Source: Victivallis vadensis (GTDB taxonomy: Bacteria; Verrucomicrobiota; Lentisphaeria; Victivallales; Victivallaceae). Taken from it: a DNA stretch of 64,000 nucleotides. Both the position numbers and the translations under genes were made by a program. This document shows positions 2,109 through 55,786 of the stretch, piece by piece. The notes under the pieces were generated by a model. It did not search any database and was not told where the DNA came from. It worked only from the letters and a program-made list of their open reading frames with translations. The stretch is from the NCBI RefSeq assembly GCF_003096415.1, contig NZ_QEKH01000006.1, forward strand, positions 1 to 64,000, in the 5' to 3' direction. Each line of letters starts with the position of its first letter. Position 1 is the first letter of the stretch.

Positions 2109-2123
2109 TCCTCCGGGGAGTGC

Positions 2124-3386: not shown

Positions 3387-3427
3387 CATTCACCTCTGAA
3401 TCTGAATATTTTTCCGTCAGCTGCTTA

Positions 3428-6400
3428 TCACAATACTCCGGGAGTTTCGGAGATCAATACATCGAAAACCGGATTCCGGCCGACGTTTACAAAGATCGTT
3501 TCCCCGGCGGCCGGGCGCGACGGAAGCCGCCGCGCGGGAGCGCCGTCCAGCGCGAGCGAGGCATTCCGCCCATCCAGTTTCAGCGTCAGCGTCCGCCACG
3601 ATTCCCGGTCCGTTCCGGCGGGCAGGGCAACGCCGCCGGAGGCGGTAACCGTTCTGCCCGCTCCATCCCCGGCCACCGTCAGTGAAAAGTCTCCGCAGCC
3701 CGCCAGCACCTCCGTCTCCCCGAAAGCCGCCGCGCGGAAGATGATTTCGACAGTTCCAGACTCCGGGACCGTTCCGGCCGGAACAGCGATCCGGAAACGT
3801 TCCTCCGGCGCATACACGCCCCAGCGCCCGGCGACCGGACCGGCCGCGCGGACCAGCGCCGGCTCATACAACACTTTCCGGGCGAACGGCGAAAGCCTTG
3901 CCGGTTCCGGCGCTTTTCCCGGCCCCTCTCCCGCCGACCAGCGTTGTCCGCGGGAAACCGCCCCGGCATCCTCCGACGCATCGATCTCGCCGATCAGCAG
4001 CGTGCCGAGCCCGGCCGCAGCCGAATCCCGCCGCAGTTCATAACGGCGGTCGCCGGGCCGGTCGAAGACCGTTCCATCCAATGAAGCGAGTTTTTTCCCG
4101 CCGGCGCCGGCGATCACGCCGTTTTCCTTCGGCGCAACCTCAAGGTTGTTGAAAAATTCAAGCAATCCCTGATAGCCGGGGGTCTCCCACAGAATTTCCC
4201 GGCAGGAGATGATGTTGTTGAAGAAGCGGAAATTGACGAACTCCATATAACGGCGCTGAACGCGGTTGATCAGGCAGTGATCCGGCAGATCGATCGTATT
4301 GTTGAACACCAGGAATCCGGGATAAGGTGCGAACAGGAACCGTTTGGAAATCCGCGTCCGCGTTTCCGCATCCGGCGCCCCGTTTCCCATCTCCCTGATC
4401 CGCTCCCAGTTGAGCCAGTTCGCGCCGAATTTGAATGCGCCGTGGCTGCGAACCGTCCTGACCTCCTTCGACTCCGGATTCTCGTAAAAGATGTTGCGGT
4501 AGACGAAGACCGGCCCCGGCCACGGCAGTCCTCCGAGCGGCTGGTCGGAGATGGGATCGGGCATGTCGATGAACACATTATTGTAGATGCGGACGTTCTT
4601 CGCATGGTTTTCCACTTCTATCGCATTGTCGAGCAGCTTCTCGAACCGGTTGCCGTAAATCTGGGTATCCTCCGCGCGATCCATGCTGAAGCAGGAGAGG
4701 CCGTCAAACGCATTTTCAATGATGGAATTGCGCAGGTGCCACCGCTTCCCGGCATTCAGGAATACCCCGGTTTCATGACTTTTGGTGTAGTCGCTGACAT
4801 GCTTCGGCAGCCACTGCCATTTGGAATACCACGCGGGGTCCTGCGGGTCCGGTTTCCGTTTTCCGATCAGTTCCTTTGCTTCTCCCCAGAGATCCTTCAA
4901 CTGATACAGGCAGTTTTCCACAAACACATCGTCGGTGCCGCTCCCCGCAACCGCCCAGCGGCAGCCGCTGAAGACGCAGTTCCGCACCACGATCCCGCCG
5001 GAACGGACCGCGACCACGGCGGCGGTGCCCGGCGTCTCAAACGTGATCCCGTCGATAACCAGTCCGGCGCGGTCGCCCGTTTTCACGAAAAAATTGGAAT
5101 CCTTCGGCTGATATCCGGCACGCCCGTTGAAACCGCCCGCCCAGCAGCGGGAAGCGACGCTCATAACGTGTTCATTCGGATCGCGGGAGCCGTATTTCCC
5201 GCCGATATGGAGCCGGACATACAATTTTTTGCTTTCAGCATCGTAGTAATGGCCGTGAAACGGCAGAGGCATCCGGGGTTCGCCGGTCGTCATCATTTCC
5301 CGCAGGCTTTTCAGGGTGTCGCCGGCGGGCAGGTTGACTCCGTCATACAGCACCCGGACCGGACGCTCCGCCAGCGGGACGCTGTAAATTCGCGCCTGCT
5401 CGTCTTCGAGCTTCCACTTCACCTTCCCCTCGCGGATTTCCCGCACGGCTCCCGTTACGATGACCTTGCCGGGCGCGGCCGGATCGCCCTGAATCGTCAG
5501 GGGAGCTTCCGGAGTCCCTCCCTTTAAAATATTCACCTGCTCGAAATAGATTCCGGGAGCGAGCTTCACCGTATCGCCCGGCGCGGCGGCGGCGACGGCT
5601 CTCCCGATGGACCTGAACGGCTTTTCAGGTGAGATTCCGGCATTCGCGTCATCCCCGGAAACCGGGTCCACAAACCGGACGGCTGCGGGATGTTCTTTTA
5701 CTGCAGAACCTTCAGGCAGTCCCAGTTCCCGCCGCAGCTCCGGAATCGTGAGCGCCCGGTCCCAGACCGTAATGCCGAAAATTTCCGTTCCCTCCGGCAC
5801 CAGATATTCGCACAAACGGCTGTGCGAACGGCGGCCGCCGACACAGAGCAGCCGGTTCCCCGCCTTCTCCGCCAACGCCCCGACCGCCGGACAGGGGACG
5901 GAACCGCCATAGACGATCTCCCCGCTGCTCCGGTCGATCACCGTGACGGCGCAGAACTTCCCCGGCTCAAACCGGACGATATATTCGTAACGGACGCCGG
6001 GGCGGCATTCGATCCCCGTTCCCAGGATTCCGACGATGCCACGGGCATAGCCATCCGAGATGAAACCGGCAGGAGAACTTCCCCGGAAATCACTGTGATG
6101 CCGGCCGGAAAACCCGAATTCAAAGCCGCGCACTCCTTCCGCAGGCCGATTACGTGCGAGCAGCACTCCCTGCGGCGGTGCCTTGAACCTCACCTGCACC
6201 CGGAGAGTCTGCGCTCCGTTGAGTTTATAGGAGGCCGCCAGCAGGCTGCGCCCGTCGAACACATAACGGAAGCGGCCGGTTTCCGCATCCCTGACGGCGG
6301 CGGGGACAGCCTGATCCTGCTTCCCCGCCGCGTCGAACCGCCGGAACTGCGGAATGGTTTCCGTCCCATCCCACCGGAGCACCGGCCCGGCCCATGCAGC

Positions 6401-6445
6401 CGGAATAAAAGCCAATACGCCAAATACGACAGACCATTTCTTCAT
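3428..6445 (-). CDS. Secreted right-handed beta-helix (pectate-lyase-fold) protein
   Basis: A 1005-residue exported protein. Starting at the ATG at 6445, which follows a GGGGGG ribosome-binding site, it has a signal peptide ending '...FIPAAWA'. The region of about 20-240 has LamG/concanavalin-like character. Near residue 255 the text 'VDPVSGDDANAGISPEKPFRSI' is the DUF1565-type start of a parallel beta-helix, which runs with many N-rich turns to about residue 750. A second LamG-like sandwich occupies about the last 150 residues. Such proteins bind or cleave polysaccharides (polysaccharide lyases, alginate epimerases), but no catalytic residues can be named. It lies 17 bases after the pseudopilin gene, in the same operon. 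Confidence 0.8.
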   Translation of the reverse strand: MKKWSVVFGVLAFIPAAWAGPVLRWDGTETIPQFRRFDAAGKQDQAVPAAVRDAETGRFRYVFDGRSLLAASYKLNGAQTLRVQVRFKAPPQGVLLARNRPAEGVRGFEFGFSGRHHSDFRGSSPAGFISDGYARGIVGILGTGIECRPGVRYEYIVRFEPGKFCAVTVIDRSSGEIVYGGSVPCPAVGALAEKAGNRLLCVGGRRSHSRLCEYLVPEGTEIFGITVWDRALTIPELRRELGLPEGSAVKEHPAAVRFVDPVSGDDANAGISPEKPFRSIGRAVAAAAPGDTVKLAPGIYFEQVNILKGGTPEAPLTIQGDPAAPGKVIVTGAVREIREGKVKWKLEDEQARIYSVPLAERPVRVLYDGVNLPAGDTLKSLREMMTTGEPRMPLPFHGHYYDAESKKLYVRLHIGGKYGSRDPNEHVMSVASRCWAGGFNGRAGYQPKDSNFFVKTGDRAGLVIDGITFETPGTAAVVAVRSGGIVVRNCVFSGCRWAVAGSGTDDVFVENCLYQLKDLWGEAKELIGKRKPDPQDPAWYSKWQWLPKHVSDYTKSHETGVFLNAGKRWHLRNSIIENAFDGLSCFSMDRAEDTQIYGNRFEKLLDNAIEVENHAKNVRIYNNVFIDMPDPISDQPLGGLPWPGPVFVYRNIFYENPESKEVRTVRSHGAFKFGANWLNWERIREMGNGAPDAETRTRISKRFLFAPYPGFLVFNNTIDLPDHCLINRVQRRYMEFVNFRFFNNIISCREILWETPGYQGLLEFFNNLEVAPKENGVIAGAGGKKLASLDGTVFDRPGDRRYELRRDSAAAGLGTLLIGEIDASEDAGAVSRGQRWSAGEGPGKAPEPARLSPFARKVLYEPALVRAAGPVAGRWGVYAPEERFRIAVPAGTVPESGTVEIIFRAAAFGETEVLAGCGDFSLTVAGDGAGRTVTASGGVALPAGTDRESWRTLTLKLDGRNASLALDGAPARRLPSRPAAGETIFVNVGRNPVFDVLISETPGVL

Positions 6446-6462
6446 TGTTTCCCCCCTGTTCT

Positions 6463-7257
6463 TCAATTCCATTTCAACGCGTCGTGCCAGCAGTAGCCGG
6501 TCTGGTTTGCCGGCTGTCCTCCGGACCCCAGTTCCTTCACCCGGTAATGCCGCAAGTTTGCCGCGTGGCCGTCGGCAAAGCCGATGTTCGAACTCAGGCC
6601 GTGATGCCGTGTGGAGATGATTCCGTGCCAGCCGAGCGTCATCGCGGGAAACGCCGACGCGCCGACGGTATTGAATACCGGCACATTCTCGGCCACATCC
6701 GCAAACAGCACCCGGGCCGACGGCCGTCTGACGTTCTCGAATTTGCCGAACCGCGCATCCGCCCGATTCGTCGCGCTGTCCTCATAACAGACATATTGAT
6801 TCACCGCGTAGCTCGCGTTGGGGACGACTTCGGAGCCGTCCTTCGTGGTAAAGGCATCGGTACCGCTGCGGCGGCCGGCCGGACATAATGCCGGCTTGAC
6901 CACATCGTAGCGTTCCGGTTCGCTCCAGTAATCCGGCCAGGTCCCTCCGGCCCCCAGATACGGCAGCAGCGTATAATGCTGGTTCTGGTCGGCGGCGATC
7001 GGCCCGAACAGCCGGTAACGGGCGTAGTTCCTTTTGGCAGGGGGATAGACGAGCCCCCACCCGTTGTAATCTCCGGCATATCCCGTCACGGCAAGGCTGA
7101 GCTGTTTCAGGTTGTTCAAACACTGCGCGCTCCGGGCGGTTTCCCGTGCTTTGTTCAGCGCCGGCAACAGCAGTGCGGCTAAAATTGCAATGATTGCAAT
7201 TACAATAAGCAATTCGATCAATGTAAAATAATACACTCCCTTATATCCGACTTTCAT
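6463..7257 (-). CDS. Prepilin-type N-terminal cleavage/methylation protein (DUF1559-like pseudopilin)
   Basis: A 264-residue type II/IV pseudopilin-like protein. The short basic leader is followed by '[16 protein letters not shown]', the classical prepilin peptidase site with Glu at +5 and a hydrophobic assembly helix, then '[21 protein letters not shown]'. The C-terminus has the '[11 protein letters not shown]' (H-x9-DG) motif of the family. The start at 7257 has AAGGAGGAGT upstream, and its ATG overlaps the stop of the regulator gene (ATGA). The family is greatly expanded in Lentisphaerota and planctomycetes, with unknown function. Its place between a regulator and secreted carbohydrate-active proteins suggests a surface or export role in glycan use (inference). 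Confidence 0.88.
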
Positions 7258-8339
7258 GGTACTCCTCCTTCGTTCTTCCATGTGGATTCTCCCTGCATGA
7301 TCAATTCGTCCTCCGTGAATTTCCGATAGTCGAAATTGAACCGCAGCCTGCCCGGCTGCGGAGTGATCCCGAGAAAATGTTCAAAAAGTTCGGCGGCCAG
7401 CGGCGCGAGCGGCGGAGTCCTGATCACCGTGATGGAGGGGATGAACATCGCCGCCAGCTCCGGAGCACCGAAAGAAGCGACCTGAATCTCCTCCGGCACC
7501 CGGATTCCGGCATCCGCAAAAGCCCGCAACAGCCCCTGCGCGGCTTCCACGTCGGAACAGAACACCCCGTCGGCCTCCCGAAACGCCCCCTGTTTCAGGA
7601 ATCCGGCGGCAAGCCGGTGCGCCTGTACAAATCGTTCTTCCTCCACGTTTCCCATGACGCAATACGCCTCTCCGGTACAATTCAGTTCTTTCAGCGTCTT
7701 CTCCCACACGTCGCGGCGGGCGGTGTAGAACTCCGGCGTCTGCATCACGGAGAAAAAATCGATCTTCCTGCAATTTCTCCGCGCCAGATGGCGGACGATC
7801 AACGCGCAAGCCTCATTGCCGATGCCGTCGAAAAACGGAATCCCCTCCGCGCTCATGTCGGCAAACAGCAGGACGACCTTCTCCTTTTTCTGCCTGATCT
7901 TGTCCAGCAGAAGCCCGTCCGGAGTGCCGACGCTCAGAAAGATCAGGTCGAAATCCCCGTCCAGCGTTTCGTAGAGAATCGCGTCGTCCGTCGTGTCGAA
8001 TACGACCCGGCAGAACATGCACCGGTATTTCCGGGCCGCTTCCCGGACCGCCAGCAGCCATTTATCGGCCGGACAGCAGTAGCCTGACGAAACGAAAGCC
8101 ACCTTGAACGGCGTCCTTCCCGCACCGCCCGGCTGCACCAGCCGCTCATTTTCACCGCGCACCAGCAGTCCCTCGTCCAGCAGCAGCTGAAAAGCCTGCC
8201 GCACCGTCCGGTAGTTGACCCCGAATTCCGCAACCAGTTTCGGTCCCCCCGGAAAACTCTGGGACATATAATTACCGTTTGCAATCCTCCGCTTCAGGAT
8301 TTCGGCAATCTGCACGTATTTCGGAACTTTGCTTCTCAT
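7254..8339 (-). CDS. GntR-type winged-helix / periplasmic-binding-protein-like transcriptional regulator
   Basis: A 361-residue one-component regulator. The N-terminal winged helix (about 1-70) has the GntR pattern '[12 protein letters not shown]' and '[18 protein letters not shown]'. The rest (about 75-350) is a LacI/periplasmic-binding-protein-like effector domain, the architecture of AraR of Bacillus. It is the first gene of a cassette with pseudopilin, beta-helix and GH1 genes and probably senses a sugar from that pathway. A TTGACA-17-CATAAT promoter and a palindrome at the expected transcription start lie just upstream, consistent with autoregulation. The effector is unknown. Confidence 0.85.
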
Positions 8340-8354
8340 GGATCAACACACCTG

Positions 8355-8368
8355 CATAGTTTTCTATG
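8355..8368. promoter_or_regulatory. Palindromic operator candidate, CATAG-N4-CTATG
   Basis: The perfect inverted repeat CATAG-TTTT-CTATG lies 3 bases downstream (minus-strand sense) of the -10 box of the GntR-type regulator's promoter, so it would cover the transcription start. That is the usual place for an autorepressor site. Only its position and symmetry support the call. Confidence 0.45.
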
Positions 8369-8371
8369 TAT

Positions 8372-8400
8372 ATTATGACTCAACCGGACCACTTTGTCAA
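8372..8400 (-). promoter_or_regulatory. Sigma70-like promoter of the regulator-pseudopilin-GH1 cassette
   Basis: On the minus strand, TTGACA (8400-8395) is followed by 17 bases and CATAAT (8377-8372). It lies 33 bases before the regulator start at 8339. Confidence 0.65.
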
Positions 8401-8652
8401 GTGGGAAACCAATATTTCTCCTGAAATTTTCATGGAAGCGGCTCTGTCCCCGGCTGCTGTATTAAAGGAGTCTAATTATTTTGAACTTCATAATTCATTA
8501 TCCCCCATGCCGTTGCCCGCCCGGCAACGAAACGGAGTGACAATTCCGGGCTGTTTTCACCTTGAAAATCAGCCCGTCAAGATGTATATTGGTAATTCAT
8601 ATCTCAATTTTTTTGAGTTTGATAACTATTTACATAAAGGAAGGATCATAAT
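8401..8652 (+). promoter_or_regulatory. pflB leader/upstream region with a long hairpin
   Basis: An AT-rich non-coding stretch before pflB. At 8547-8576 it holds a hairpin with arms CGGGCTG and CAGCCCG extended by TTTTCA/TGAAAA; a small CTCAA/TTGAG hairpin follows at about 8613. AGGAAGG (about 8639) is the pflB ribosome-binding site. No convincing -35/-10 pair or full FNR box (TTGAT-N4-ATCAA) could be read. An open frame crossing this stretch and entering pflB has no family resemblance. Confidence 0.4.
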
Positions 8653-10872
8653 ATGGAACTCAAGACCGGCGAGTGGAATAAGGAAGTCAATGTACGGGAC
8701 TTCATCCAGCGCAATTACACGCCCTATGACGGCGATAAATCATTTCTGACTCCCGCTTCGGACCGGACCAGGGCCCTGTGGGAGAAGCTCTGCACCCTGA
8801 TGAAGATCGAGCGGGAACGCAAGGGTGTCTACGATATCGACGAAAAGACGATTTCGACCATCGACTCGCATGAGGCGGGCTATATCGACCGGGAGCTTGA
8901 GCAGATCGTCGGGCTCCAGACCGACGCCCCGCTGAAACGCGCGATCATGCCCTTCGGCGGCATCCGGCTGATCTACACCGAGCTGGACGCCTACGGCCGG
9001 AAGATGGACCCGGAGGTCGCAAATGTGTTCAAATACCGCAAGACCCACAACGACGGCGTATTCGACGTCTACACCGACGAGATGAAGGCGGCCCGCCACG
9101 CCGGCATCATGACCGGCCTGCCCGACGCCTACGGCCGCGGCCGCATCATCGGCGACTACCGCCGGGTGCCGCTCTACGGCGTGGACCGCCTGATCGCCGA
9201 AAAGCAGCGCGCCAAGAAGGAGATGGTCATCGACGTGATGGACTCCGACCACATCCGCAAGCGCGAGGAGATCGCCGAACAGATCAAGGCGCTCAAGGAA
9301 CTCAAGGCGATGGCCGCCAAATACGGCTTCGACATCTCCCGCCCGGCGGAAGACACCAAAGAGGCGATCCAGTGGCTCTATTTCGGCTATCTCGCGGCGG
9401 TCAAGGAGCAGAACGGCGCGGCGATGTCGATCGGCCGCATCTCGACCTTCCTCGACATCTACGCCGAAGCCGACCTCAGGAGCGGCAAGTACGCCGAAGA
9501 GCAGATTCAGGAGTTCGTGGACCACTTCATCATGAAGCTGCGGATCGTGCGTTTCCTGCGCACCCCGGCCTACGACGAGCTGTTCAGCGGCGATCCCACC
9601 TGGGTCACCGAATCGCTCGGCGGCATGTCGCTGGACGGCCGCCACATGGTCACTAAAATGAGCTACCGCTTCCTGCACACGCTGGTCAACCTCGGCCCCG
9701 CGCCGGAGCCGAACCTGACCGTGCTGTGGAGCGTCAAGCTGCCGGAAAACTTCAAGAAATTCTGCGCCGAAATCTCCATTCTGACCTCGTCGATCCAGTA
9801 TGAGAACGACGACCTGATGCGCGTGAAATTCGGCGATGACTACGGTATCGCCTGCTGCGTCTCCGCGATGCGGATCGGCAAGCAGATGCAGTTCTTCGGC
9901 GCGCGCTGCAACCTCGCGAAGGCGCTGCTCTACGCGATCAACGGCGGCCGCGACGTGAAATACGACAACATGCAGGTTGCTCCGGCGATTCCGCTGCTGG
10001 CCGGCGACGGCTATCTGAACTACGACGAGGTGATGCGGAACTTCGACGAGATCACCGACTGGCTCAGCAAACTCTACATCGACACGCTGAACATCATCCA
10101 CTACATGCACGACAAATACTGCTACGAGCGGATCGAAATGGCGCTGCACGACGAGGAAATCGTCCGCACAATGGCCGGCGGCATCGCCGGACTCTCGGTG
10201 CTGGCGGACAGCCTGTCGGCGATCAAGTACGCGAAAGTCCGGCCGGTGCTGAACGAAGCCGGGCTGGCGGTCGATTTCGTGACCGAAGGCGACTTCCCGA
10301 AGTACGGCAACAACGACGACCGCGTCGACCAGATCGCGGTGGAGATCGTGAAGAGCTTCGAGAAGAAGCTTTCCAGCCACTACGCCTACCGCAAGTCCAA
10401 ACCGACCATGTCGATCCTGACCATCACCTCAAATGTGATGTACGGCAAGAAGACCGCGTCGACCCCGGACGGGCGCAAGGCGGGCGAGCCCTTCGCCCCC
10501 GGCGCGAACCCGATGCACGGCCGCGATGTGAACGGCGCGGTCGCATCGCTGAAATCGGTCGCCAAACTGCCCTACGACTATGCGGAGGACGGCATCAGCT
10601 ACACCTTCAGCATCGTGCCCGATTCGCTCGGCAAAACCACGGCGGAAAAGCAGGCGAACCTGATTTCGCTGCTGGACGGCTACTTCACGGAGAACGGCCA
10701 TCACCTGAACGTGAACGTGCTCAAGCGCGAAACGCTGCTCGACGCGATGGACCACCCGGAAAAGTATCCGCAGCTGACCATCCGCGTCTCCGGCTACGCC
10801 GTGAACTTCATCAAGCTGACCCGCGAGCAGCAGCTCGACGTGGTCAACCGCACCTTCCACAGCAAGTTCTGA
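8653..10872 (+). CDS. pflB: Pyruvate formate-lyase (formate C-acetyltransferase)
   Basis: A glycyl-radical enzyme converting pyruvate and CoA to acetyl-CoA and formate, central to anaerobic sugar fermentation. It has 739 residues, close to the 760 of E. coli PflB. The paired active-site cysteines are in 'GIACCVSAM' (C401, C402), and the radical glycine is G714 in 'RVSGYAV', 25 residues from the end as in the family. The double cysteine favours true PFL over glycerol or choline lyase relatives. AGGAAGG precedes the ATG. The activase gene starts 7 bases after the stop, so the two are co-transcribed. Confidence 0.96.
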
Positions 10873-10879
10873 GCGTGCG

Positions 10880-11593
10880 ATGGAAGGCGTGACCGGCAGG
10901 GTGCATTCGTTTGAGAGCTTCGGTACGCTGGACGGCCCGGGAGTGCGTTTCGTCGTATTCCTGCAGGGCTGTCCGCTGCGATGCCGCTACTGCCACAATC
11001 CCGACACCTGGGAATTGGGGGGCGGCATGGAGATCTCCTCCGCCGAAGTGGTCGGCAAAATCGAATCCTGCCGGAACTTCATCCGCTCCGGCGGCGTCAC
11101 GCTGTCGGGCGGAGAACCGCTGATGCAGCCGGAATTCGCCCGCGACATCCTCGAACGGTGCGCGCGGGCCGGTTTCCACACCGCGCTCGACACCGCCGGT
11201 TCCGTCCCCTTGGAACGCTCCCGGCCGGTCATCGACCGGGCGGATCTGCTTTTGCTCGACATCAAGGCGCTCAATCCGGCCCTCTGCCGCGAATTGACCG
11301 GCCGCGACAACCGCAACACCCTTGCCACACTGGATTATTGCGAAGAGACCGCCAGGCCGGTCTGGATCCGGCACGTGCTGGTGCCGGGCTTCACCCTGCT
11401 CCGCGAACGGCTCGAAGAGCTGGCCGCATTCCTGAAGCCCTACCGCTGCATCCGGCGGATCGACCTGCTGCCCTACCACAAGCTCGGCGCCTACAAGTGG
11501 GAGCAGCTCCGCCTGACCGATACGCTCCGGGACGTCCCGGAACCCTCCCAGGCGGAAATTCAAATGGCCGAAGCACTCTTCGGTCTCAACTGA
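10880..11593 (+). CDS. pflA: Pyruvate formate-lyase activating enzyme (radical SAM)
   Basis: A radical SAM activase that generates the glycyl radical on PflB using S-adenosylmethionine and a [4Fe-4S] cluster. It has 237 residues. 'GPGVRFVVFLQGCPLRCRYCHNP' contains the CxxxCxxC cluster motif near residues 30-37, and 'GGVTLSGGEPLMQPEF' is the SAM-binding glycine motif. The length matches PflA rather than longer activases with extra ferredoxin domains. It is tightly coupled to pflB. Element E1 begins directly after its stop codon. Confidence 0.95.
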   Translation: MEGVTGRVHSFESFGTLDGPGVRFVVFLQGCPLRCRYCHNPDTWELGGGMEISSAEVVGKIESCRNFIRSGGVTLSGGEPLMQPEFARDILERCARAGFHTALDTAGSVPLERSRPVIDRADLLLLDIKALNPALCRELTGRDNRNTLATLDYCEETARPVWIRHVLVPGFTLLRERLEELAAFLKPYRCIRRIDLLPYHKLGAYKWEQLRLTDTLRDVPEPSQAEIQMAEALFGLN

Positions 11594-11606
11594 TACCGCC
11601 TCCGCC

Positions 11607-12441
11607 CCGGGATTTCGCCCTTTGGGCGACCAAGGCGCTTCGCCCTTGGAACCAGACCGGCAAGGTGCCGGTGCCGAATACTTGAGATCCGGGAAAGGCG
11701 TTTCGCCTTTCCCTCCGGGTGGGGGAGCTCTGATGGAGACAGGCATGGTTGTACAGGAGCGGCACACCGCTCCGGTCGGCGACCGCGTCGGCTTTTTTGC
11801 CCGGAATGACGAGTACGGCGAAGCCGCACGGAGGAGTGGAGGGAGGGGCCCCCGAAAAGTACCCGCAGCTTTTGGGCAAAGCCCAAAAGTCCCGAGGCCC
11901 GTGGCCGAAGGGAGGCAACTTTTTGGGGAAGAGGGCACTCCCTGCGCCTGCTGCCGCCGGAGGTCACGCTCGGAACCTCCAGATGCTGACCGGGAAATAG
12001 AAAGATACCCTGATGGAAGCTGATAAGAATTTATCTGCCGATATACGCAAAGCGAGGTCAGGCAACAATGCAATTGTCATATCACAGACAAGCATATCTT
12101 TGAGTACGAGCCTTACTGAACCTTGCCTGCATGATAGAGACAGGCAGAGTTCAGCCTCCATGAGTGTAACTTCACATCATCCGGTCAGCATCTGGAGGTT
12201 CCGAGCGTGACCTCCGGCGGCAGCAGGCGCAGGGAGTGCCCGGCGTCGGCAAAAAAGCCGACGCGGTCGCCGACCGGAGCGGTGTGCCGCTCCTGTACCC
12301 GCTTGCCTGTCCACAGTAGAGCCTCCCCCACCCGGAGGGAAAGGCGAAACGCCTTTCCCGGATCTCAAGTATTCGGCACCGGCACCTTGCCGGTCGGGTT
12401 CCAAGGGCGAAGCGCCTTGGTCGCCGAAGGCGAAATCCCGG
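11607..12441. repeat. Element E1: long inverted-repeat hairpin element, copy 1 (with E4)
   Basis: A non-coding element between the convergent ends of pflA and the GH106-like gene. Its outer 13 bases are perfect inverted repeats (CCGGGATTTCGCC at 11607, complement ending 12441). Arms of about 250 bases are inverted copies of each other and consist of small hairpins, for example GGGAAAGGCG-TTT-CGCCTTTCCC (11691-11713) and CGTCGGC-AAAAAA-GCCGACG (12244-12263). A core at about 12004-12180 is about 88% identical by eye to that of E4. The left arm carries an extra block of about 131 bases (11802-11932). Open frames inside it are by-products of the repeats. It could be a structured RNA, a bidirectional terminator region or a non-autonomous mobile element. 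Confidence 0.8.
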
Positions 12442-12453
12442 CAGCGATGAAGA

Positions 12454-15400
12454 TTAATGCTTCAACAGTTTGGGAGCGGTGATGATGCCGAATGGCTGCA
12501 CCTGATATTCATAACTGAACATATCGCCTTCAGTGCGCCACGCCCCCGGTCCCATCCAATTCATCCGGAAGGCAAGGTGCAACGCTCCGGCGCTGTTCAC
12601 CCGGCTGCCGTACAAGGTCAGGTCGAGCCGATGCTCTCCGGCTTCCACTTTGCCGAGCGCACACTGGAACGGGGCGAACGCCAGATCGCCGGCCGGCTTG
12701 CCGTCCAGCGCCGCACTGACCAGCGTGCCGCGATAGGCGGCGAACGGCACTTCGCGCGCCGCATTCGGGCAGGTCATCCCTGTCGGCGTATTGGTCACGC
12801 GCGACGGCAGCCGCAGGTCGAGCTCCTGCGCTTCTTTGAGGTTGAAACGGCAGTGGTAGGTGATATTGCCGCCATAGAACGGCAGCCCCTGTCGGGTCGC
12901 ATCACCCCAATAAAGCTCCCGGACCGGAGCGGTAAGCCGGGCGGAATCGCCGCGCAGCTCCACGCCAAAGTCGCCGAGCAGGAAGCACTTCTCCACGTTG
13001 CCGGAGTTGGAGTACGCGATTTTGACCAGCAGCTCGTGTTCTCCCGGTTCGATCGCGGGCAGCATCGTGGTGCGCAGCGATTCGTCGGTCCACCAGCCGC
13101 ACTCCTCGAATTCAACCGGACGGCCGTCGAGGAAGAGTTCGGCGCGTTCCGGCTCCTCCATCGCAAAGAGCGGATTTTCGACCTTCACCAGCGAATCGAA
13201 ACGGTAGGAAAGTTCCAGCGTCGCCAGCTTCCGGTAATCCTTGCCGTAGACCCACGGCTGCACGATATGGCCGCCGCGCTCGCGCAGGCCGAGCCGTTCG
13301 CGAACCTGATTGTCCAACCGCAGGATCTCCTCCGGCCCCTGCCATCCGGCATCCCCTTCCAGCCGCCATTTCGGCATATCGAGCACCAGCACGTTCGGTT
13401 CGTCCAGCGAAACCGGCATCGTGCCGGAGAGCCGCCCGACCGTCGCCGCTTCCACCGCCCGGTCGCCGAGCAGCGGCTGCGCGATCTTTCCGCCGCGGCT
13501 CTCCTCCGCCGCGGTCAGGCGCACCAGCAGATGGCCGTGCGGATAGAAACAGAAATCGAAAACCGTCCAGCCGTTCTCGTGCCGCGCTTCGACCGGAGTG
13601 ATCGCGCCGGTCTGCGTATCGAGGTATTCCACCTGGAAGCCGCCGCGCACTTTGACCAGCGTCTCATGCCCCTCGCCCAGCCGTTCGGTGTTCGCCAGAA
13701 AGAGGTAGCGATACGGACCGTCGTTGCGCATCTGACTGACCAGCGTGGCCAGCGGGTAACCGTCCGCCTTTTTCACCACCTCAAGTTCCCGGACGCTTTC
13801 CAGCGCGCCGAGCAGCGCGGTGCGCGTGAACGGAATCGCCTCGCACTTCCGCGCGACCTGCGCGGGCCGTTCGGACTCCTGCGCATCGCACAGCGTCGCC
13901 ACATCCCCGGCGAAGATCACCCGGCCGCCCGCCGCCCGGAACTTCTCCAGCCGGTCCAGCGTGGAGCCGCGCAGCGTGACGGTCGGCGGCACCACGACCA
14001 CGTCATACCCCATCTCGCCGACGATGAAACTCTTGCCGAGCTGGACCGGGCTCTGCCCCGGCAGCAGCGACTCGGAAATGAAATCGAAGTCGACCAGGCC
14101 GCGCAGCAGCCAGCTGACCGTGTTTTCAAAAGCCTCCTCCGCCTGTTCGCGGCGGGCGGCGGTCCGGTCCTGCGGCCCGTAGACCAGCCAGAAAGATTCG
14201 ATCGGATGGATCACGCCGACCCGGACCCGCGCCCTGCCGCGCGTCATCGCCGCATTCACCCGCGCGAAGTGGTCCGCGATCAGCCGGTACTTATCGTGCC
14301 ACGGCGACTGGTAACTGATCGAAGCCGGATAATCCCGCTTCGCCTCGCCCGCCATCGACACCCACGCCAGATGCGGCACCCGGACGGTCACGCCCAGCGC
14401 CGCCTGCCAATCCCCATGCCCCTTGTGGCCCATGAAATTGAAATCCCAGTCGGTCACGCCGTCGAGTTCGGAGAGCACCCCGCCCCGGCCGTACTGATGC
14501 GACGCGCTGGCCGCCTGCTTCGCGGTGGTGAACTCCATCCAGTCGCAGAGCATGTCGATGCCGGGGAGCTGGAAGGAGCGGTAGCTGCGCATCGCTTCGC
14601 CGAGCGCATGGGTCTGCGACTCCAGCGTCGGCTCCTCCATCATGTGCCCGGAGAAGCGGATGCCGTGCTCCTCGCACCAGCCGCCGATCGTATCGGCGAA
14701 CGCGGAGCTGAACCGCTCCGCGACGTGGTCGTGATACCGGTAGCGCGCCAGGGAATACTTTCCGCCGGGCAGCTCCCAGATCACCTCCGGGAAGGTCTCG
14801 AAGAAGTCGGCGTCATAAGCGGCGCGGTAGGTTTCCGGCAGGTCGTCGGTGAAGGGCATGCGCACATCGCGTTTCTCCCGTGCGAACTTCAGCACCGTCT
14901 TGCGGGTGAACTGCGGCTCGTCGGTGAAGATCGCCGGGATGGTCTTGTTGAACTCGTCGCCGACACTCTTGAAATAGGCTTCGTAGGTCACGTCCACGAA
15001 TTTCCGGATCGCCGCCGGATTCAGGGTGTCGACATAGGCCTGGTCGTTGAACCACGGATCGGAGGTTTCGACCATCCGGTAGGCGTAGAACTTCTCCGCA
15101 CCCTCCTCCGCCGGTTCATCCGCGCCGATCCGCTTGTAGGAGTCCAGTGCGCCGTCCGCGTCGAGCCGGATCGAGTAGCAGGCCAGCAGCTTGCCGGAGT
15201 CGTCGTTGGCGGCGTCCGGCGCTTCCGTCCGTTTTTCGGAGGTCAGCAGCAGATAGCGCGCCCGGAATTCCGGCTCCTTCGTGACCAGCCCGCCCGCTGC
15301 GCCGGAGGGCCAGCGGTCCTCGTCGTAGAGCCACGCCAGCATCTCCTCGGATTTCGCGGTTTCCACACACTCGCGCACCCGCGCCATGAATTCGGGCGAG

Positions 15401-15606
15401 AGGTAGGGGGTGCCGAGTCCGGTGCGGGCGTGCATGTGAAAGCCGCCCATCCCCATCTTTTTGAAATTCAGGATCTGCCGTTTCAGCTGATCCGGTTTCA
15501 ACTCGCAATTCCACGCCCAGAACGGGGTTTCCCGGTAGAGCGCTTTCGGATCGGCAAAGATCGATTCGAACGACTTCGACTGTTCATCCGCATACAGATT
15601 TTTCAT
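12454..15606 (-). CDS. GH106-like glycoside hydrolase (alpha-L-rhamnosidase-type family)
   Basis: A 1050-residue protein. The N-terminal text 'ETPFWAWNCELKPDQLKRQI', 'GMGGFHMHARTGLGTPYLS' and 'AWLYDEDRWPSGAAGG' is typical of GH106 and the related 'glycosyl hydrolases related' group, which have a TIM-barrel core. A Rossmann-like region ('DVVVVPPTVTLRGSTLDRL') and C-terminal beta-sandwich, galactose-binding-like regions follow (about 770-1045). No signal peptide is seen, so it is probably cytoplasmic. AAGGGAGA precedes the ATG at 15606. It is divergent from an AraC regulator that likely controls it. Rhamnosidase activity is inferred from family resemblance only. Confidence 0.75.
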   Translation of the reverse strand: MKNLYADEQSKSFESIFADPKALYRETPFWAWNCELKPDQLKRQILNFKKMGMGGFHMHARTGLGTPYLSPEFMARVRECVETAKSEEMLAWLYDEDRWPSGAAGGLVTKEPEFRARYLLLTSEKRTEAPDAANDDSGKLLACYSIRLDADGALDSYKRIGADEPAEEGAEKFYAYRMVETSDPWFNDQAYVDTLNPAAIRKFVDVTYEAYFKSVGDEFNKTIPAIFTDEPQFTRKTVLKFAREKRDVRMPFTDDLPETYRAAYDADFFETFPEVIWELPGGKYSLARYRYHDHVAERFSSAFADTIGGWCEEHGIRFSGHMMEEPTLESQTHALGEAMRSYRSFQLPGIDMLCDWMEFTTAKQAASASHQYGRGGVLSELDGVTDWDFNFMGHKGHGDWQAALGVTVRVPHLAWVSMAGEAKRDYPASISYQSPWHDKYRLIADHFARVNAAMTRGRARVRVGVIHPIESFWLVYGPQDRTAARREQAEEAFENTVSWLLRGLVDFDFISESLLPGQSPVQLGKSFIVGEMGYDVVVVPPTVTLRGSTLDRLEKFRAAGGRVIFAGDVATLCDAQESERPAQVARKCEAIPFTRTALLGALESVRELEVVKKADGYPLATLVSQMRNDGPYRYLFLANTERLGEGHETLVKVRGGFQVEYLDTQTGAITPVEARHENGWTVFDFCFYPHGHLLVRLTAAEESRGGKIAQPLLGDRAVEAATVGRLSGTMPVSLDEPNVLVLDMPKWRLEGDAGWQGPEEILRLDNQVRERLGLRERGGHIVQPWVYGKDYRKLATLELSYRFDSLVKVENPLFAMEEPERAELFLDGRPVEFEECGWWTDESLRTTMLPAIEPGEHELLVKIAYSNSGNVEKCFLLGDFGVELRGDSARLTAPVRELYWGDATRQGLPFYGGNITYHCRFNLKEAQELDLRLPSRVTNTPTGMTCPNAAREVPFAAYRGTLVSAALDGKPAGDLAFAPFQCALGKVEAGEHRLDLTLYGSRVNSAGALHLAFRMNWMGPGAWRTEGDMFSYEYQVQPFGIITAPKLLKH

Positions 15607-15681
15607 GGCGTCTCCCTTATGATTTTTTTACGGAATGGCAATTACTTTCTTTCAATATATAGGAACTGCGCCGATTATCCT

Positions 15682-15702
15682 TGATTTTCTGAAATAAAAT
15701 CA
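15682..15702. promoter_or_regulatory. Inverted repeat in the GH106/AraC intergenic region
   Basis: TGATTTT and AAAATCA form a perfect 7-base inverted repeat with a 7-base spacer, midway between the divergent hydrolase and AraC genes. It is a reasonable candidate for an AraC-family binding site; position and symmetry are the only evidence. Confidence 0.35.
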
Positions 15703-15765
15703 GCATTATCTGTCACAAATCCAGATTTTCTCTTTCTTATTCGACATTCTGTGCTATATTTCGGC

Positions 15766-16662
15766 ATGGCAAATCTGGAAAACAAACTGACGTGGCAGAA
15801 CTTCGGCTTTGAAGTCCGCTACCACGTGCACGACCGGGAATACGGCATCCGCGACCGCCACGCCCACGACGGCTTCTACGAGCTGGTCGTGGTGCGCAGC
15901 GGCTCCGCCACCCACGTCCACGACGGAGTCAAAAGCCATATCGAGAGCGGCGACGTCTACCTGATCCCGCCGGGGGAGCCGCACTACTACGCCAACGCCC
16001 GGCAGCTCGGCATCTACAACGTGCTGTTCACGGGGGACTTCTTCGCGGGGCTGCTCGCGGAATTTCCCGGAGCGCCCGACATCGAAGCCTATCTGGGGCT
16101 CTCGGGCGGCGCGCTGCCGGAGGGACACCGGGCCGATGTGCGGCGCTTCGACCCGGAGCTGTTTTTCCGGATCACCGCGCTGCTGGATGAGATTGTAGAG
16201 GAGGAGACGCAAGAACTTTCCGGCGCGCGGCTGATGATCCTCAGCAATGCGCTGAAAATCCTGACGCTGATCTGCCGCCACGCCCGCAAATCCGCCGAAC
16301 GCAACATCGGCAGCGCCGGCTACCGGATCGCCTCGCTGGTCAAAACCCTGGAAGCCGACTTCGCCGGGGAGTGGAGCCTGCGGCGCATGGCCGAACACAC
16401 CGGATTTTCCGTCGCCTGCTTCCGGCGGCAGTTCCGGCGGATCATCGGCGAACCGCCGGTGGCGTGGCTGCTCTCGCTCCGCCTCGAAAAAGCGGCGATG
16501 ATGTTGCAGACCGGCGACGGCTCCATCGCCGAAACCGCCGAAGCGTGCGGTTTCCCCGACAGCAACTATTTCACGCGGATGTTCCACCGCAGATTCGGCG
16601 CCACGCCCCGCGCCTACCGCCTCGGCCTCCGGCGCCGAACCGGCGGCGCCGACGTAGTCTGA
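15766..16662 (+). CDS. AraC-family transcriptional regulator
   Basis: A 298-residue regulator. The N-terminal cupin (about 10-140, 'RDRHAHDGFYELVVVRSG' and 'SGDVYLIPPGEPHYY') binds the inducer. Two helix-turn-helix motifs follow in the C-terminal 100 residues ('WSLRRMAEHTGFSVACFRRQF' region and 'ETAEACGFPDSNYFTRMFHRRF'). It probably controls the divergent GH106-like gene. The ATG at 15766 is preferred to the GTG at 15751. No Shine-Dalgarno sequence is visible and a TATATT box (15755-15760) ends 5 bases before the ATG, which would give a leaderless message. Confidence 0.88.
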   Translation: MANLENKLTWQNFGFEVRYHVHDREYGIRDRHAHDGFYELVVVRSGSATHVHDGVKSHIESGDVYLIPPGEPHYYANARQLGIYNVLFTGDFFAGLLAEFPGAPDIEAYLGLSGGALPEGHRADVRRFDPELFFRITALLDEIVEEETQELSGARLMILSNALKILTLICRHARKSAERNIGSAGYRIASLVKTLEADFAGEWSLRRMAEHTGFSVACFRRQFRRIIGEPPVAWLLSLRLEKAAMMLQTGDGSIAETAEACGFPDSNYFTRMFHRRFGATPRAYRLGLRRRTGGADVV

Positions 16663-16735
16663 CTTGAAGCAAAAACAGTGAAAGATAAGATTCGGCTTCG
16701 ATCAGTAACATCCCGGGGTGGAGTTTCGTTGATCA

Positions 16736-17098
16736 AGCCAATAAACTGATAGACACAGCCCAAAGCGAGTCGTGTAAAAAAAGCCTGCCGTTGTAAATCC
16801 GTCCGCCCTGTCGGGCGGCAGACCTTGTGCGCTGCGCGGCCTGATTTGCAATCGCATCTCCGGCAGCCGGGCGCTACGCGCACAAAGTGTCTTCGACGAC
16901 AAGGGCACTTCGTCCTTTGACCCCGATCGGGTAGCCTCCGGTGGCAAGTACTGCCGATAGAGCCAATAAACTCATAGATAATAACCCCGGTTTTGAGATT
17001 TTTGCGCAGTAAAAAGCTCGAAACCGCACCCGGCGCCGGCCCCTTGCCAGTCGGGGGGGACCGGGAGGTGAAGCGCCCCCGGCCGCCGGAGGCATGCA
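16736..17098 (+). repeat. Element E2: hairpin repeat, family B
   Basis: A non-coding element between the convergent araC-type gene and mntP. Blocks shared with E3 and with the reverse of E5 are, in order: a GC-rich hairpin, 'GCAGACC', a long stem (TTGTGCGC...GCGCACAA) enclosing 'GCCTGATTT', a GTCT-CGACG block, a GG(G)CA-hairpin, an 'AGATAATAACCCC' block and the terminal CCGCCGGAGGCA. A short direct repeat (AGCCAATAAACT) occurs at about 16736 and 16960. It is more diverged than E3 or E5, and some stems are imperfect. Confidence 0.7.
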
Positions 17099-17099
17099 G

Positions 17100-17705
17100 T
17101 TACCACGGCAGGAGTTCCAGGTGTTCCAGCAGGATTTTAACGCCGATCAGGATGATTGCGCTGCCGCCGACGATCATCATCACCCGTTCGCCCGCCAGCA
17201 TTCCGATCCGGGTGCCGAGCAGCACTCCCGCAATTGAAGCCGCCGCCGTAACCACTCCCATCGCCAGCGCCGGCAGCCAGATGCCGGTTCCGGCAAAGGC
17301 CAGCCCTGCCCCGACCGCCAGCGCATCCAGGCTGGTCGCGACCGCCGGAACCACCAGCGCCTTCGGTGCGAAGAAGTCCGGCGGGCAGTTCAGACACGGA
17401 GAACCGTCCCCGTTCTTTTCCGGCTCTTTTTCGGCAATCGCCTCATAGATCATCTTGCCGCCCACCAGCCCGAGCAGGACAAAGGCAAGCCAGTGATCCA
17501 CCGACGCGACCACTGACTGAAGCATCGTGGCCGCGAAGAAACCGATCACCGGCATAATAATCTGGAATCCGCCGAAAAAAAGAGCCGCCCACGCGGCATT
17601 GCGCAGGCGGCGTCCGGTGCGGTCGCACAATGCGCCGCCGATGGAAACGGCGAGCGCATCGATCGACACGCTCACCGCGATCAGCAGAACTTCGACAACG
17701 GACAT
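17100..17705 (-). CDS. mntP: Putative manganese efflux pump MntP
   Basis: A 201-residue inner-membrane protein with six hydrophobic segments. Both halves carry the diagnostic acidic motif of the family: 'VSVSIDALAVSIG' near residue 14 and 'ATSLDALAVGAGL' near 122, whose aspartates are implicated in Mn(II) export. A Cys-Pro rich loop ('CLNCPPDF') lies between the halves. AGGAG precedes the ATG. It starts 7 bases after argF, so it is probably transcribed with argD-argF. No Mn-responsive yybP-ykoY riboswitch can precede it because of that coupling. Confidence 0.9.
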   Translation of the reverse strand: MSVVEVLLIAVSVSIDALAVSIGGALCDRTGRRLRNAAWAALFFGGFQIIMPVIGFFAATMLQSVVASVDHWLAFVLLGLVGGKMIYEAIAEKEPEKNGDGSPCLNCPPDFFAPKALVVPAVATSLDALAVGAGLAFAGTGIWLPALAMGVVTAAASIAGVLLGTRIGMLAGERVMMIVGGSAIILIGVKILLEHLELLPW

Positions 17706-17712
17706 GATGCTC

Positions 17713-18615
17713 CTACTTGATCAGTCGCGCCATCACCGCTTTCTGCACATGCAGCCGGTTTTCGGCCTCGTCAAAGACGATCGAACGCTTCGGATCATCC
17801 ATCACGCCGGCCGAAACCTCCTCGCCGCGGTGGGCGGGCAGACAGTGCAGGAACTTCGCATTCGGCCTGGCCCGCTCAAACAGCGCCTCGTTGACCTGAT
17901 AGGGACGGAAAATCTTCATGCGCCGCTCCTTTTCGTCCTCGAAGCCCATGCTGACCCACACGTCGGTATAGAAGTAATCGACGCCTTCGGCCGCCTTCAG
18001 CGGATCAGGCTCCCAGCAGATGTTCGGCGCGCCGGCCATCAGCTCCTCGGCGGGACGCTCCTCGGCGGGGGCGGAAACCACCATCTCCATGCCGGTCAGC
18101 CGCGCCGCCAGCATCAGCGAATTCGCTATATTGCTGCGGCCGTCGCCGTAAAATGCGACCCGGATCGATTTGTCCACCCTGCCGGAATACTCCTTGATGG
18201 TCAGCATATCCGCCAGAATCTGGCAGGGATGGTATTCATCGGTCAGCGCGTTGATCACCGGAATCGACGCTTCGCGCGCCAGCTCCTCAACGTCGGCGTG
18301 CGAAAAGGTCCGGATCACGATGCCGTGCAGGTAACGGCTCAGCACCTTGGCGGTGTCGGCGACGGTTTCGCCGCGCCCGACCTGCATCCGGGACTGGTCC
18401 AGATAAAGCGGCCGCCCGCCCAGTTCGCCGACGCCGACTTCAAACGAAACGCGGGTCCGGGTCGAGGATTTCGCGAAAATCAGCCCCACGCTTTTACCGG
18501 CCAGCGGCGTATAATTCATCTTGTTCCGTTCGGCCTTCAGCTTCGCGGCCAGCTCGAAAATGCCGTGCAGGTCGTCGAGCGTCAGGTCCCTCAGGGTCAA
18601 CAGGTCTTTCTTCAT
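17713..18615 (-). CDS. argF: Ornithine carbamoyltransferase
   Basis: Converts ornithine and carbamoyl phosphate to citrulline in arginine biosynthesis; cytoplasmic, probably trimeric. It has 300 residues. The carbamoyl-phosphate motif STRTR is at 51-55 and the ornithine-side 'HCLPAHRGEEV' near 259-269. A strong GGGAGGA ribosome-binding site precedes the ATG, which overlaps the argD stop by 4 bases. The protein is shorter than E. coli ArgF (334) but typical of the anabolic family. Confidence 0.95.
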   Translation of the reverse strand: MKKDLLTLRDLTLDDLHGIFELAAKLKAERNKMNYTPLAGKSVGLIFAKSSTRTRVSFEVGVGELGGRPLYLDQSRMQVGRGETVADTAKVLSRYLHGIVIRTFSHADVEELAREASIPVINALTDEYHPCQILADMLTIKEYSGRVDKSIRVAFYGDGRSNIANSLMLAARLTGMEMVVSAPAEERPAEELMAGAPNICWEPDPLKAAEGVDYFYTDVWVSMGFEDEKERRMKIFRPYQVNEALFERARPNAKFLHCLPAHRGEEVSAGVMDDPKRSIVFDEAENRLHVQKAVMARLIK

Positions 18616-19823
18616 TTTTGTTCCTCCCGAATCATCCGGTCGAGTTCCGCCAGTCCGGCGGCGATCTTTTCCAGCGCCTCGTCGGCGTCGGCCCGGGTAA
18701 TGGTCAACGGCGGCAGCAGCCGCAGCACGGTTTCGCCCGCGGTCAGCACCACCAGATTGTGTTTCAACAGAATTCCGGCCAGCGTCGCGGCCTCGCGGTC
18801 GAGCACCACGCCGATCATCAGGCCCATGCCCCGCACCGTCTTCACAAAGGAGTAGGGCTTGCCGATTTCAACCAGCTTCGCGCGCAGGTAGTCGCCCTGA
18901 ATCCGGCAGTTCTCCAGCACGCCGTCCTCGTCGAACGCCTGCTGCACCGCCAGCGCGGCCGCGCTGACCAGCGGCGTACCGCCGAAAGTGCTCGCGTGCA
19001 TGCCGACTTTCAGCACATCCGCGTATTTGCGCTTCACGATAAAAGCCCCCATCGGCAGGCCGTTCGCGATCGCCTTGGCCATCGACAGCGCATCCGGCTC
19101 GACGCCGAAACTCTGCCACGCGAACCGGGTCCCGATCCGCCCCATGCCGCACTGCACTTCATCGAAGAGCAGCAGGATATCCTTTTCATCGCACAGCGCG
19201 CGCACCTTCTTCAGGTACTCCGCATCGGCGGGCAGGATGCCGCCCTCGCCCTGCACCGGCTCAAGCAGGATCGCGCAGGTATTGGCGGAAACGGCGGCTT
19301 CCAGCGCCGCGAAATTGTTGAACGGCACCTGTTTGAAGCCGGGGACCTCCGGCTCGAAGCCCTTGCGGTATTTGGCGCGGCCGGTTTCGGCCAGCGTCGC
19401 CAGCGTCCGGCCGTGGAACGAATTGTCCATCGAAATGATCTCGTTGCGGCCCGTCGCATTGCCGTATTTCCGCGCGAACTTGCTCATGCCTTCGTTGGCT
19501 TCGGCACCGGAGTTGCAGAAGAACACCACGCCGTCCATGCCGGAGGTGATCAGCTTTTCCGCCAGGCGCGGCATCATCTCATTCATATAGAGATTGGAGA
19601 CATGCACGAGCTTGCCCGCCTGTTCCCGGATCGCTTCGGTCACGCGCGGATTGCAATGCCCGAGGTTGCAGACGGAAATGCCGGATGCGAAATCGAGATA
19701 TTCTCGGTTGTCGGCGTCCCAGAGGCGCGTCCCCTGCCCGCGGGTGAAGAGAATCTTCGGGGCATAGGTGGGCATCACATAGTTCCGGTACCGTTCGACA
19801 GTGGTTTCGTAAAGGTTTTCCAT
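18612..19823 (-). CDS. argD: Acetylornithine aminotransferase
   Basis: A class III PLP-dependent aminotransferase of arginine biosynthesis (N-acetylglutamate semialdehyde to N-acetylornithine). It has 403 residues. The cofactor site 'LLFDEVQCGMGRIG' and the Schiff-base lysine in 'SMAKAIANGLPMGAF' are present, as is 'NSGAEANE' for phosphate contact. ArgD enzymes can also act in lysine synthesis. AGGAG lies 8 bases before the ATG. It leads the argD-argF-mntP operon. The other arg gene in the window is the short argA at 49.5-50 kb. Confidence 0.94.
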   Translation of the reverse strand: MENLYETTVERYRNYVMPTYAPKILFTRGQGTRLWDADNREYLDFASGISVCNLGHCNPRVTEAIREQAGKLVHVSNLYMNEMMPRLAEKLITSGMDGVVFFCNSGAEANEGMSKFARKYGNATGRNEIISMDNSFHGRTLATLAETGRAKYRKGFEPEVPGFKQVPFNNFAALEAAVSANTCAILLEPVQGEGGILPADAEYLKKVRALCDEKDILLLFDEVQCGMGRIGTRFAWQSFGVEPDALSMAKAIANGLPMGAFIVKRKYADVLKVGMHASTFGGTPLVSAAALAVQQAFDEDGVLENCRIQGDYLRAKLVEIGKPYSFVKTVRGMGLMIGVVLDREAATLAGILLKHNLVVLTAGETVLRLLPPLTITRADADEALEKIAAGLAELDRMIREEQK

Positions 19824-19851
19824 CTCTCAGACTCCTGTTATAGAAAAATCC

Positions 19852-19865
19852 CCTGCAACTGCAGG
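19852..19865. promoter_or_regulatory. Palindrome in the argD leader, CCTGCA-AC-TGCAGG
   Basis: A 14-base inverted repeat between the argD -10 box and its ribosome-binding site. It may be a repressor site or a small leader hairpin. It does not match the known ArgR box (AT-rich 18-mers). Confidence 0.3.
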
Positions 19866-19874
19866 AAAATAGAT

Positions 19875-19902
19875 AATATACCCGAACTTTCCCAAAATGC
19901 AA
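19875..19902 (-). promoter_or_regulatory. Promoter of argD-argF-mntP
   Basis: On the minus strand, TTGCAT (19902-19897), a 16-base spacer and TATATT (19880-19875), about 50 bases before the argD start. Confidence 0.65.
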
Positions 19903-19935
19903 GTATATCTTCGCCGCCTTTTACGGAGCCGCCGA

Positions 19936-20655
19936 TCAGCGCGGCTGCGCGGTCAGCGTTGCAAGCAGCGCTGGCACCGCGACTTCGGTGCGCAGCGTGC
20001 GGCGGCCGAGCGTGACCGGCGTGACGCCGTGACGGGCCAGCAGATCAATTTCATAACCGGTGAAGCCGCCCTCAGGACCGATCACCAGCGCGGCCGGCCC
20101 GCGGCTCCCGACCGGAATCGGCTCCGTCGCAGCGGGATGCCCCGCATAGGCCGGACGCCCGGCGAGAATACCGGGAAGCTCATCCTCCACGAACGGCTTG
20201 AACCGGTTGCGGAATTCGATCCGGGGCATCGCCGTGTCGCCGGCCTGTTCCAGCGCGAGACGGCAGGTTTCATCCAGCGAAGCGGTTTCGAGGTTGGGGC
20301 TGGACCAGTAGCTTTTGTCCACTTTCCAGCAGGCGATGAACCAGAACTCCTTCACTCCCATCGTGACGGCGGCGTGCAGCACCTTCTGGAAAGTCTTGGG
20401 GCGCGGCAGCGCCGCGATCAGCGTGACCGGCGACGGTTCCGGCGGAGGCACCGTCAAGTCGGGACGCAGTGTCGCGGCATCCGCGCCGATCTCCAGCAGC
20501 TCGGCAGTCCCGGTCAGGCCGTTCAGCATTCCCGCCTTGCAGAACTTGCCCGGTTCGGCCTTGATCACCTCCAGCAACTGCCGGTGGCGGCGTCCGGCGA
20601 TCCGGACGAGGCCGGGTGCGATATAGTCGCTTTCGTCTAACAACAGGAGATTCAT
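19936..20655 (-). CDS. rsmE: 16S rRNA (uracil-1498-N3)-methyltransferase RsmE
   Basis: A SPOUT-class methyltransferase that modifies U1498 of 16S rRNA. It has 239 residues with a PUA-like N-terminus ('AGRRHRQLLEVIKAEPG') and the C-terminal trefoil-knot motifs 'LVIGPEGGFTGYEIDLL' and 'LGRRTLRTEVAVPALLATL', which are diagnostic. It is the last gene of the minus-strand group running from the DUF2059 gene, but element E3 separates it from pgi, so co-transcription is uncertain. Confidence 0.93.
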   Translation of the reverse strand: MNLLLLDESDYIAPGLVRIAGRRHRQLLEVIKAEPGKFCKAGMLNGLTGTAELLEIGADAATLRPDLTVPPPEPSPVTLIAALPRPKTFQKVLHAAVTMGVKEFWFIACWKVDKSYWSSPNLETASLDETCRLALEQAGDTAMPRIEFRNRFKPFVEDELPGILAGRPAYAGHPAATEPIPVGSRGPAALVIGPEGGFTGYEIDLLARHGVTPVTLGRRTLRTEVAVPALLATLTAQPR

Positions 20656-20694
20656 TTCGGACTTTCCGTGGTTATGTCAAAAAGAAAGGGGAAA

Positions 20695-21004: not shown

Positions 21005-21007
21005 AGG

Positions 21008-55689: not shown

Positions 55690-55720
55690 GGGAATTTCGC
55701 TCCAAAAGGAGCGAAATCCC
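55690..55720. terminator. Hairpin after aroA
   Basis: TTTCGCTCC-AAAA-GGAGCGAAA (55695-55716), a perfect 9-bp stem extended by flanking G/C pairs. There is no U-tract, so termination is not certain. The style resembles hairpins in elements E1-E5. Confidence 0.45.
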
Positions 55721-55786
55721 CGGTGCTTCGTGGCTCCTGACAGGTGATAAAATTGCGGGTTTTTATGGTCTGTTGTTTATTCCGGT

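Follow-up and report, generated by a model that had tools for sequence, protein, structure and literature searches.

The window analysed in this work is the whole stretch of 64,000 nucleotides at positions 1 to 64,000 of contig NZ_QEKH01000006.1 of Victivallis vadensis. It harbors two related elements, E1 (11607–12441) and E4 (48839–49544), found at the positions that a preliminary description of this DNA had given. Both are located between convergent genes, as had also been noted, E1 at 13 and 12 nt and E4 at 13 and 3 nt from their neighbours. Their reported lack of coding capacity is borne out, as the open reading frames inside them have no Pfam match, and no transposase gene of their own was found among these frames. 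The parts of both elements and a minimal remnant of the same family are given below, a footless copy being one without the insertion sequence (IS) terminal repeat, or foot, that borders other copies.

11607–12441, no strand assigned: E1, full element, footless copy, 835 bp
11607–11801, + strand: E1 left outer arm, a string of small hairpins
about 11802–11932, + strand: extra repeat in the left arm of E1 only, an insert of ~130 bp
11933–12023, + strand: E1 left inner arm, 89% complementary to the right inner arm
12024–12150, + strand: E1 core loop, AT-richer, conserved in all copies, 127 nt
12151–12241, − strand: E1 right inner arm, pairs with the left inner arm
12248–12441, − strand: E1 right outer arm, pairs with the left outer arm
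48839–49544, no strand assigned: E4, full element, footless copy, 706 bp
48839–49012, + strand: E4 left outer arm
49021–49128, + strand: E4 left inner arm
49129–49254, + strand: E4 core loop
49255–49362, − strand: E4 right inner arm
49372–49544, − strand: E4 right outer arm
55690–55721, no strand assigned: minimal E-family remnant, a single hairpin GGGAATTTCGCTCC-AAAA-GGAGCGAAATCCCC, 5 nt after a stop codon

E1 and E4 consist almost entirely of an inverted repeat around a loop of 126–127 nt; the inverted arms first described are thus real, although the length of about 250 bases given for them was too short, each arm measuring about 285 nt. The outer arms of E1 (11607–11801 and 12248–12441) are 83–98% complementary, depending on the segment, and folding compared with dinucleotide shuffles gives z = −42.6 for E1 and −28.7 for E4. 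The similarity of the two cores, estimated by eye at about 88%, was measured at 90% identity. E1 is 129 bp longer than E4 because of the separate insert in its left arm (about 11802–11932), which forms a multi-copy repeat family of its own in the genus-mate G005 (88–89%) and is partly tandem in G002 (contig C20). In another copy, L083 (961 bp), each arm contains the insert, the two lying in inverted orientation, whereas E1 has it in one arm only. Other intergenic hairpin-rich repeats, with cores unlike that of E, are found in the window at 16812–17094, 20720–21005 and 63755–63901; they have the modules CGCTTCGCCC and GACCGGC..GCCGGT in common with E, and 16965–17057 and 20878–20970 are 86% identical. 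In G005, the orthologue of the gene beside E4 is adjoined by hairpin-rich units of 268 bp arranged in tandem, which are not E (contig C16, L219 1200–2150).

The host genome (5.2 Mb in 87 contigs, 99.5% complete) yielded 43 core matches, corresponding to 34 complete elements of 660–960 bp and to fragments at contig ends; copy statistics were computed on the fetched loci. The description of E as a two-copy element therefore holds within the window but not genome-wide. The core is absent from 60 relatives searched by blastn, from 136 other Victivallales genomes searched with a sequence profile, and from phage and plasmid records, while in viral contigs a longer E pattern gave 0 matches and a short pattern gave many matches, as expected by chance. 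No mention of the element was found in the literature on Victivallis and Lentisphaerae repeats. A duplicated core is present in copies L071, L085, L086, L088, L090 and L091; it is mostly a common tandem of about 96–105 bp, and L071 carries two whole cores.

The strong conservation of this core, with a mean column identity of 90%, is one of the observations that would be expected if E encoded a large structured RNA, or if its copies were a family of 3'-UTR RNAs, maintained in either case for an RNA function. The stem first described as compensated, TTGTC/GACAA in E1 and TTGCC/GGCAA in E4, points in the same direction: it was read correctly, and among 29 copies its variable pair is C-G in 13, U-G in 12, U-A in 2 and other in 2, next to a largely invariant loop. 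It is, however, one of very few, as only 2 of the 51 pairs obtained with RNAalifold on the core alignment are changed on both sides. The whole core segment is significant against column-shuffled alignments, but it includes the closing stems of the palindrome, and the core interior reaches z values of just −1.0 on the + strand and −1.4 to −1.5 on the − strand. In addition, Rfam gave no match at the gathering threshold and chance matches only at relaxed thresholds, and, with those 136 Victivallales genomes searched, the core is known from one species only. The initial suggestion of a large structured RNA is thus weak, and we regard it as very improbable.

A gene call based on codon usage, run on the fetched loci, places 21 of the 34 copies between convergent genes. 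Another 11 adjoin a single gene 3' end and the remaining 2 separate divergent genes, so that 32/34 have a gene 3' end on one or both sides, and most copies start no more than some tens of bases from a stop codon. In this sample, which is centred on E loci, 32 of 198 adjacent gene pairs are convergent and E is found in 21 of those 32. The locational part of the earlier term "bidirectional 3'-end module" is strongly upheld by these counts, while the function that it implies is a candidate only. E might be a domesticated bidirectional terminator or a protector of mRNA 3' ends, spread by recombination and selected at convergent gene ends. Its frequent location there (21/34) would fit, as would terminator-like calls on both strands and a T6 hairpin that occurs in 66/68 arms, has its T6 without exception on the strand that would be read by transcription entering from the adjacent gene, and shows at least four complementary stem alleles. 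Yet in most alleles the T6 lies inside the loop and not after the stem, the terminator-like sites of E1 do not exceed those of shuffles (2 vs 1.4), and a harmless insertion site would give the same location at gene 3' ends. We give this reading a low probability; it is compatible with the mobile-element explanation preferred below, and both can hold at once.

The arms of E are strings of local hairpins whose interchangeable alleles have been mixed among copies and from one side to the other. In the left outer arm of E1 they follow one another as TCGCCC..GGGCGA, CCAAGG..CCTTGG, GACCGGC..GCCGGT, GGGAAAGGCG..CGCCTTTCCC and the T6 module. Across copies, the outer hairpin occurs as TCGCTCC, TCGCC or TCGCTGC, the second as CCAAGG or GCAGGG, the third as GGGAAAGGCG or GGGAAAACCG, and the T6 stem as GCCTGC, GTCGGC, GCCCGC or GAGCCGA. 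The same T6 allele is present left and right in 11 of 34 copies, against 9.7 expected, and this nearness to expectation indicates that the local hairpin, and not the long arm, is the unit for the T6 module. Left and right arms form one pool (mean likeness 0.875 between left arms, 0.879 between right arms and 0.877 between left and right). Within a copy, the likeness of the arms is 0.894, and for the outer block 0.924 vs 0.893 (permutation sd 0.007). Strong homogenisation of arms within copies was rejected, since this extra likeness is modest, as follows from arms drawn from one common pool.

Many copies are flanked on one or both sides by ACGCCGTGTGCAAGTTTCYTGAA, the first ~17 bases of which recur as the end of a multi-copy sequence at eight of the contig breaks in the host genome. 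This foot, ACGCCGTGTGCAAGTTT, belongs to an IS of the IS982 family (NF033520, 228 bits, cut-off 130), whose terminal repeat it forms; G058 contains an intact relative of 1018 bp, which encodes an IS982-family transposase and has a 99%-identical end, and the 6-bp target duplications of the intact IS in G058 and G018 are TAAATA and TATTTA. In the host genome the parent IS is represented by 8 IS ends, all at contig breaks, and no intact IS982 copy is assembled. Feet are present on both sides of 5, on one side of 6 and on neither side of 22 of the 33 measured copies. One full foot-E-foot copy, L088 (854 bp), is bordered by the 6-bp duplication GAAATA, and three small framed remnants by ATATTC, CAATAC and ATTTTC, while 4 of the 5 doubly framed full copies have no target duplication. 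One small framed remnant has an orthologue in G002 and is related to a sequence in G003, which means that the arm family predates the species. The framed form of E thus bears the marks of a miniature inverted-repeat transposable element (MITE), and the non-autonomous transposable element offered in the preliminary description is supported in kind (dispersed, species-specific, IS982 ends in some copies, duplication in L088), but most copies do not have such ends. E1 and E4, having neither IS982 terminal repeats nor a 6-bp target duplication, are consequently classed as E-family members rather than as IS982 MITEs. Two other sources of mobility were considered and rejected: an autonomous relative with E ends, as inspection of single-ended matches revealed no transposon-like unit behind the E end pattern, and a REPIN/RAYT system, as the Y1 (RAYT) transposase PF01797 has no match in this 99.5% complete genome, with positive controls.

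The 22 copies without feet on either side (E1, E4 and 20 others) show no target duplication, their mean direct repeat being 1.73 vs 1.77 by chance. Their edges are nevertheless non-random, the base before GGGATTTCG being mostly C or G, often preceded by ATC or a close variant. Over 51 flanks the consensus is A at −4 (25), T at −3 (25) and C at −2 (36); ATC occurs in the last 4 nt of 16/44 flanks vs at most 3/44 elsewhere, and the edges favour GNATC. L074 interrupts a 27-bp perfect palindrome exactly at its centre and L077 lies within an imperfect one, and in L071, L091 and L395 a common terminator-like hairpin (AACCTCCCC..CCGCAAG.AGCGGGG, then TATCC or GATCC) lies directly before E, after different genes. 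Such edges could reflect either a separate delivery route, or flanks swapped by recombination and extended by arm templating. In the first case, footless E would spread by a route of its own, an enzyme or the repair of a broken hairpin inserting the palindrome at or beside terminator hairpins with no target duplication and a weak GNATC edge preference, and the IS982-framed copies would be a later side branch. The edge consensus, the ATC enrichment, the two palindromic sites and the hairpin shared by three copies all argue for it. Nonetheless, the clear palindrome-centre cases are just two and could also be explained by outward extension through arm templating, the edge motif could be a decaying element end, and there is no candidate enzyme, the Y1/RAYT transposase being absent. 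We keep this route as a tentative possibility.

The host genome also contains a graded series of small hairpins (30–110 bp) with E ends. The 30-bp remnants have the loop TTTC or GAAA, the two products predicted from deletion between the arm direct repeats GGAGCGA or TCGCTCC; others are 50–60-bp hybrids and half elements, and the structure of the hybrids would favour decay over growth from small to large. Exchange between copies is suggested by two cases in which genes abutting different E copies are adjacent in relatives, as expected from E–E recombination: the genes to the right of L064 and of L082 are direct neighbours in G003 (in G002 by position), and those to the left of L083 and to the right of L069 in G005. 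This evidence is only suggestive, because gene order is scrambled throughout the genus; for the same reason no clean empty site was found, 0 of 40 relative loci keeping both flanks of one copy. Comparison of window positions 1500–21400 with G005, G002 and G006 shows an order broken up almost gene by gene. The idea that E sites are special synteny breakpoints was set aside as not usable evidence, as almost every gene pair in the 20-kb test stretch is rearranged in relatives.

Taken together, E1 and E4 probably represent a dispersed palindromic repeat that is non-coding and species-specific, a MITE-like non-autonomous element that is or was mobile, partly moved by IS982, reshaped through its hairpins and tolerated at gene 3' ends. 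The framed form would be mobilised in trans by the IS982 transposase, as a MITE is; one arm would template the other; deletion between short direct repeats would remove the centre, leaving the hairpins of 30–110 bp; and recombination between copies would exchange flanks and mix hairpin alleles. Insertion just behind stop codons presumably disrupts nothing, which would let copies survive at these places, and transcription arriving from either side may be stopped by the T6 hairpins of the copies. This explanation is backed by 34 complete copies at unrelated sites by gene 3' ends, with the core in 0/136 other genomes of the order, and by the subset framed by IS982-family terminal repeats, L088 with its 6-bp duplication. 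The remnant ladder with both predicted deletion products, the single arm pool, the insert in one arm of E1 vs both of L083 and the two cases of genes at different E copies that adjoin in relatives also favour it. Against it stand the 22/33 copies with neither foot nor duplication, the 4/5 doubly framed copies without duplication, the lack of an empty site with both flanks and of an intact IS982 assembled in the host; mobility itself is a sequence-based reading.

Bacteria normally cut or delete long palindromes. In E. coli, these are broken by SbcCD, as cited in PMC7999016. TIGR00619 (SbcD) has no match over the cut-off in the host genome (best 25 bits), while it scores 161–181 bits in 5 of 8 genus-mates, and in the three of these genomes inspected SbcD is adjoined by an ORF that looks SbcC-like by eye in its translation. 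G004, G006 and G007 likewise have no TIGR00619 match over the cut-off, and no E, so that loss of SbcD would be at most permissive. Footless E may even represent a new kind of mobile palindrome, a giant hairpin of 700 bp that lacks an enzyme gene, makes no target duplication and has a weakly preferred, symmetric GNATC edge, delivered at or beside gene-end terminator hairpins and expanded in a lineage that lost SbcCD, a proposal that we consider rather unlikely. About 35 near-perfect hairpins of 660–960 bp, with apparent deletion remnants and no recognisable SbcD, constitute a natural test of palindrome origin, conversion and decay in the absence of this safeguard. A way for a hairpin to turn into a mobile unit is suggested by the copies framed by IS982 ends, and because E lies behind stop codons, its possible part in terminating convergent transcription can be tested directly.

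E is a new species-specific MITE-like palindromic repeat, unusual in its size and dynamics when compared with known systems. MITECca01 of Cardinium, an IS982-derived MITE (PMC9769881), is likewise non-coding, lineage-specific, mostly intergenic and of high copy number, with IS982-type terminal repeats, but it measures about 240 bp, whereas E spans 660–960 bp and is almost all hairpin, and two thirds of E copies have neither IS982 ends nor target duplications. REPINs and BIMEs, associated with RAYT transposases (PMC3116915), are also extragenic hairpin-forming palindromes with smaller pieces that are remnants of larger units; E is far larger and its host genome has no Y1 transposase. Intrinsic bidirectional terminators between convergent genes resemble E in lying behind stop codons with T-runs toward both genes, whereas E is hundreds of bases long, has the same sequence at about 35 sites and carries its T6 mostly in loops. 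Finally, template-switch mutation at quasipalindromes (PMC7202029, PMC8604942) corrects imperfect inverted repeats arm to arm, as proposed for E; it is a mutation process and not an element, and in E it would act at a scale of about 100–200 nt, with allelic hairpin modules.
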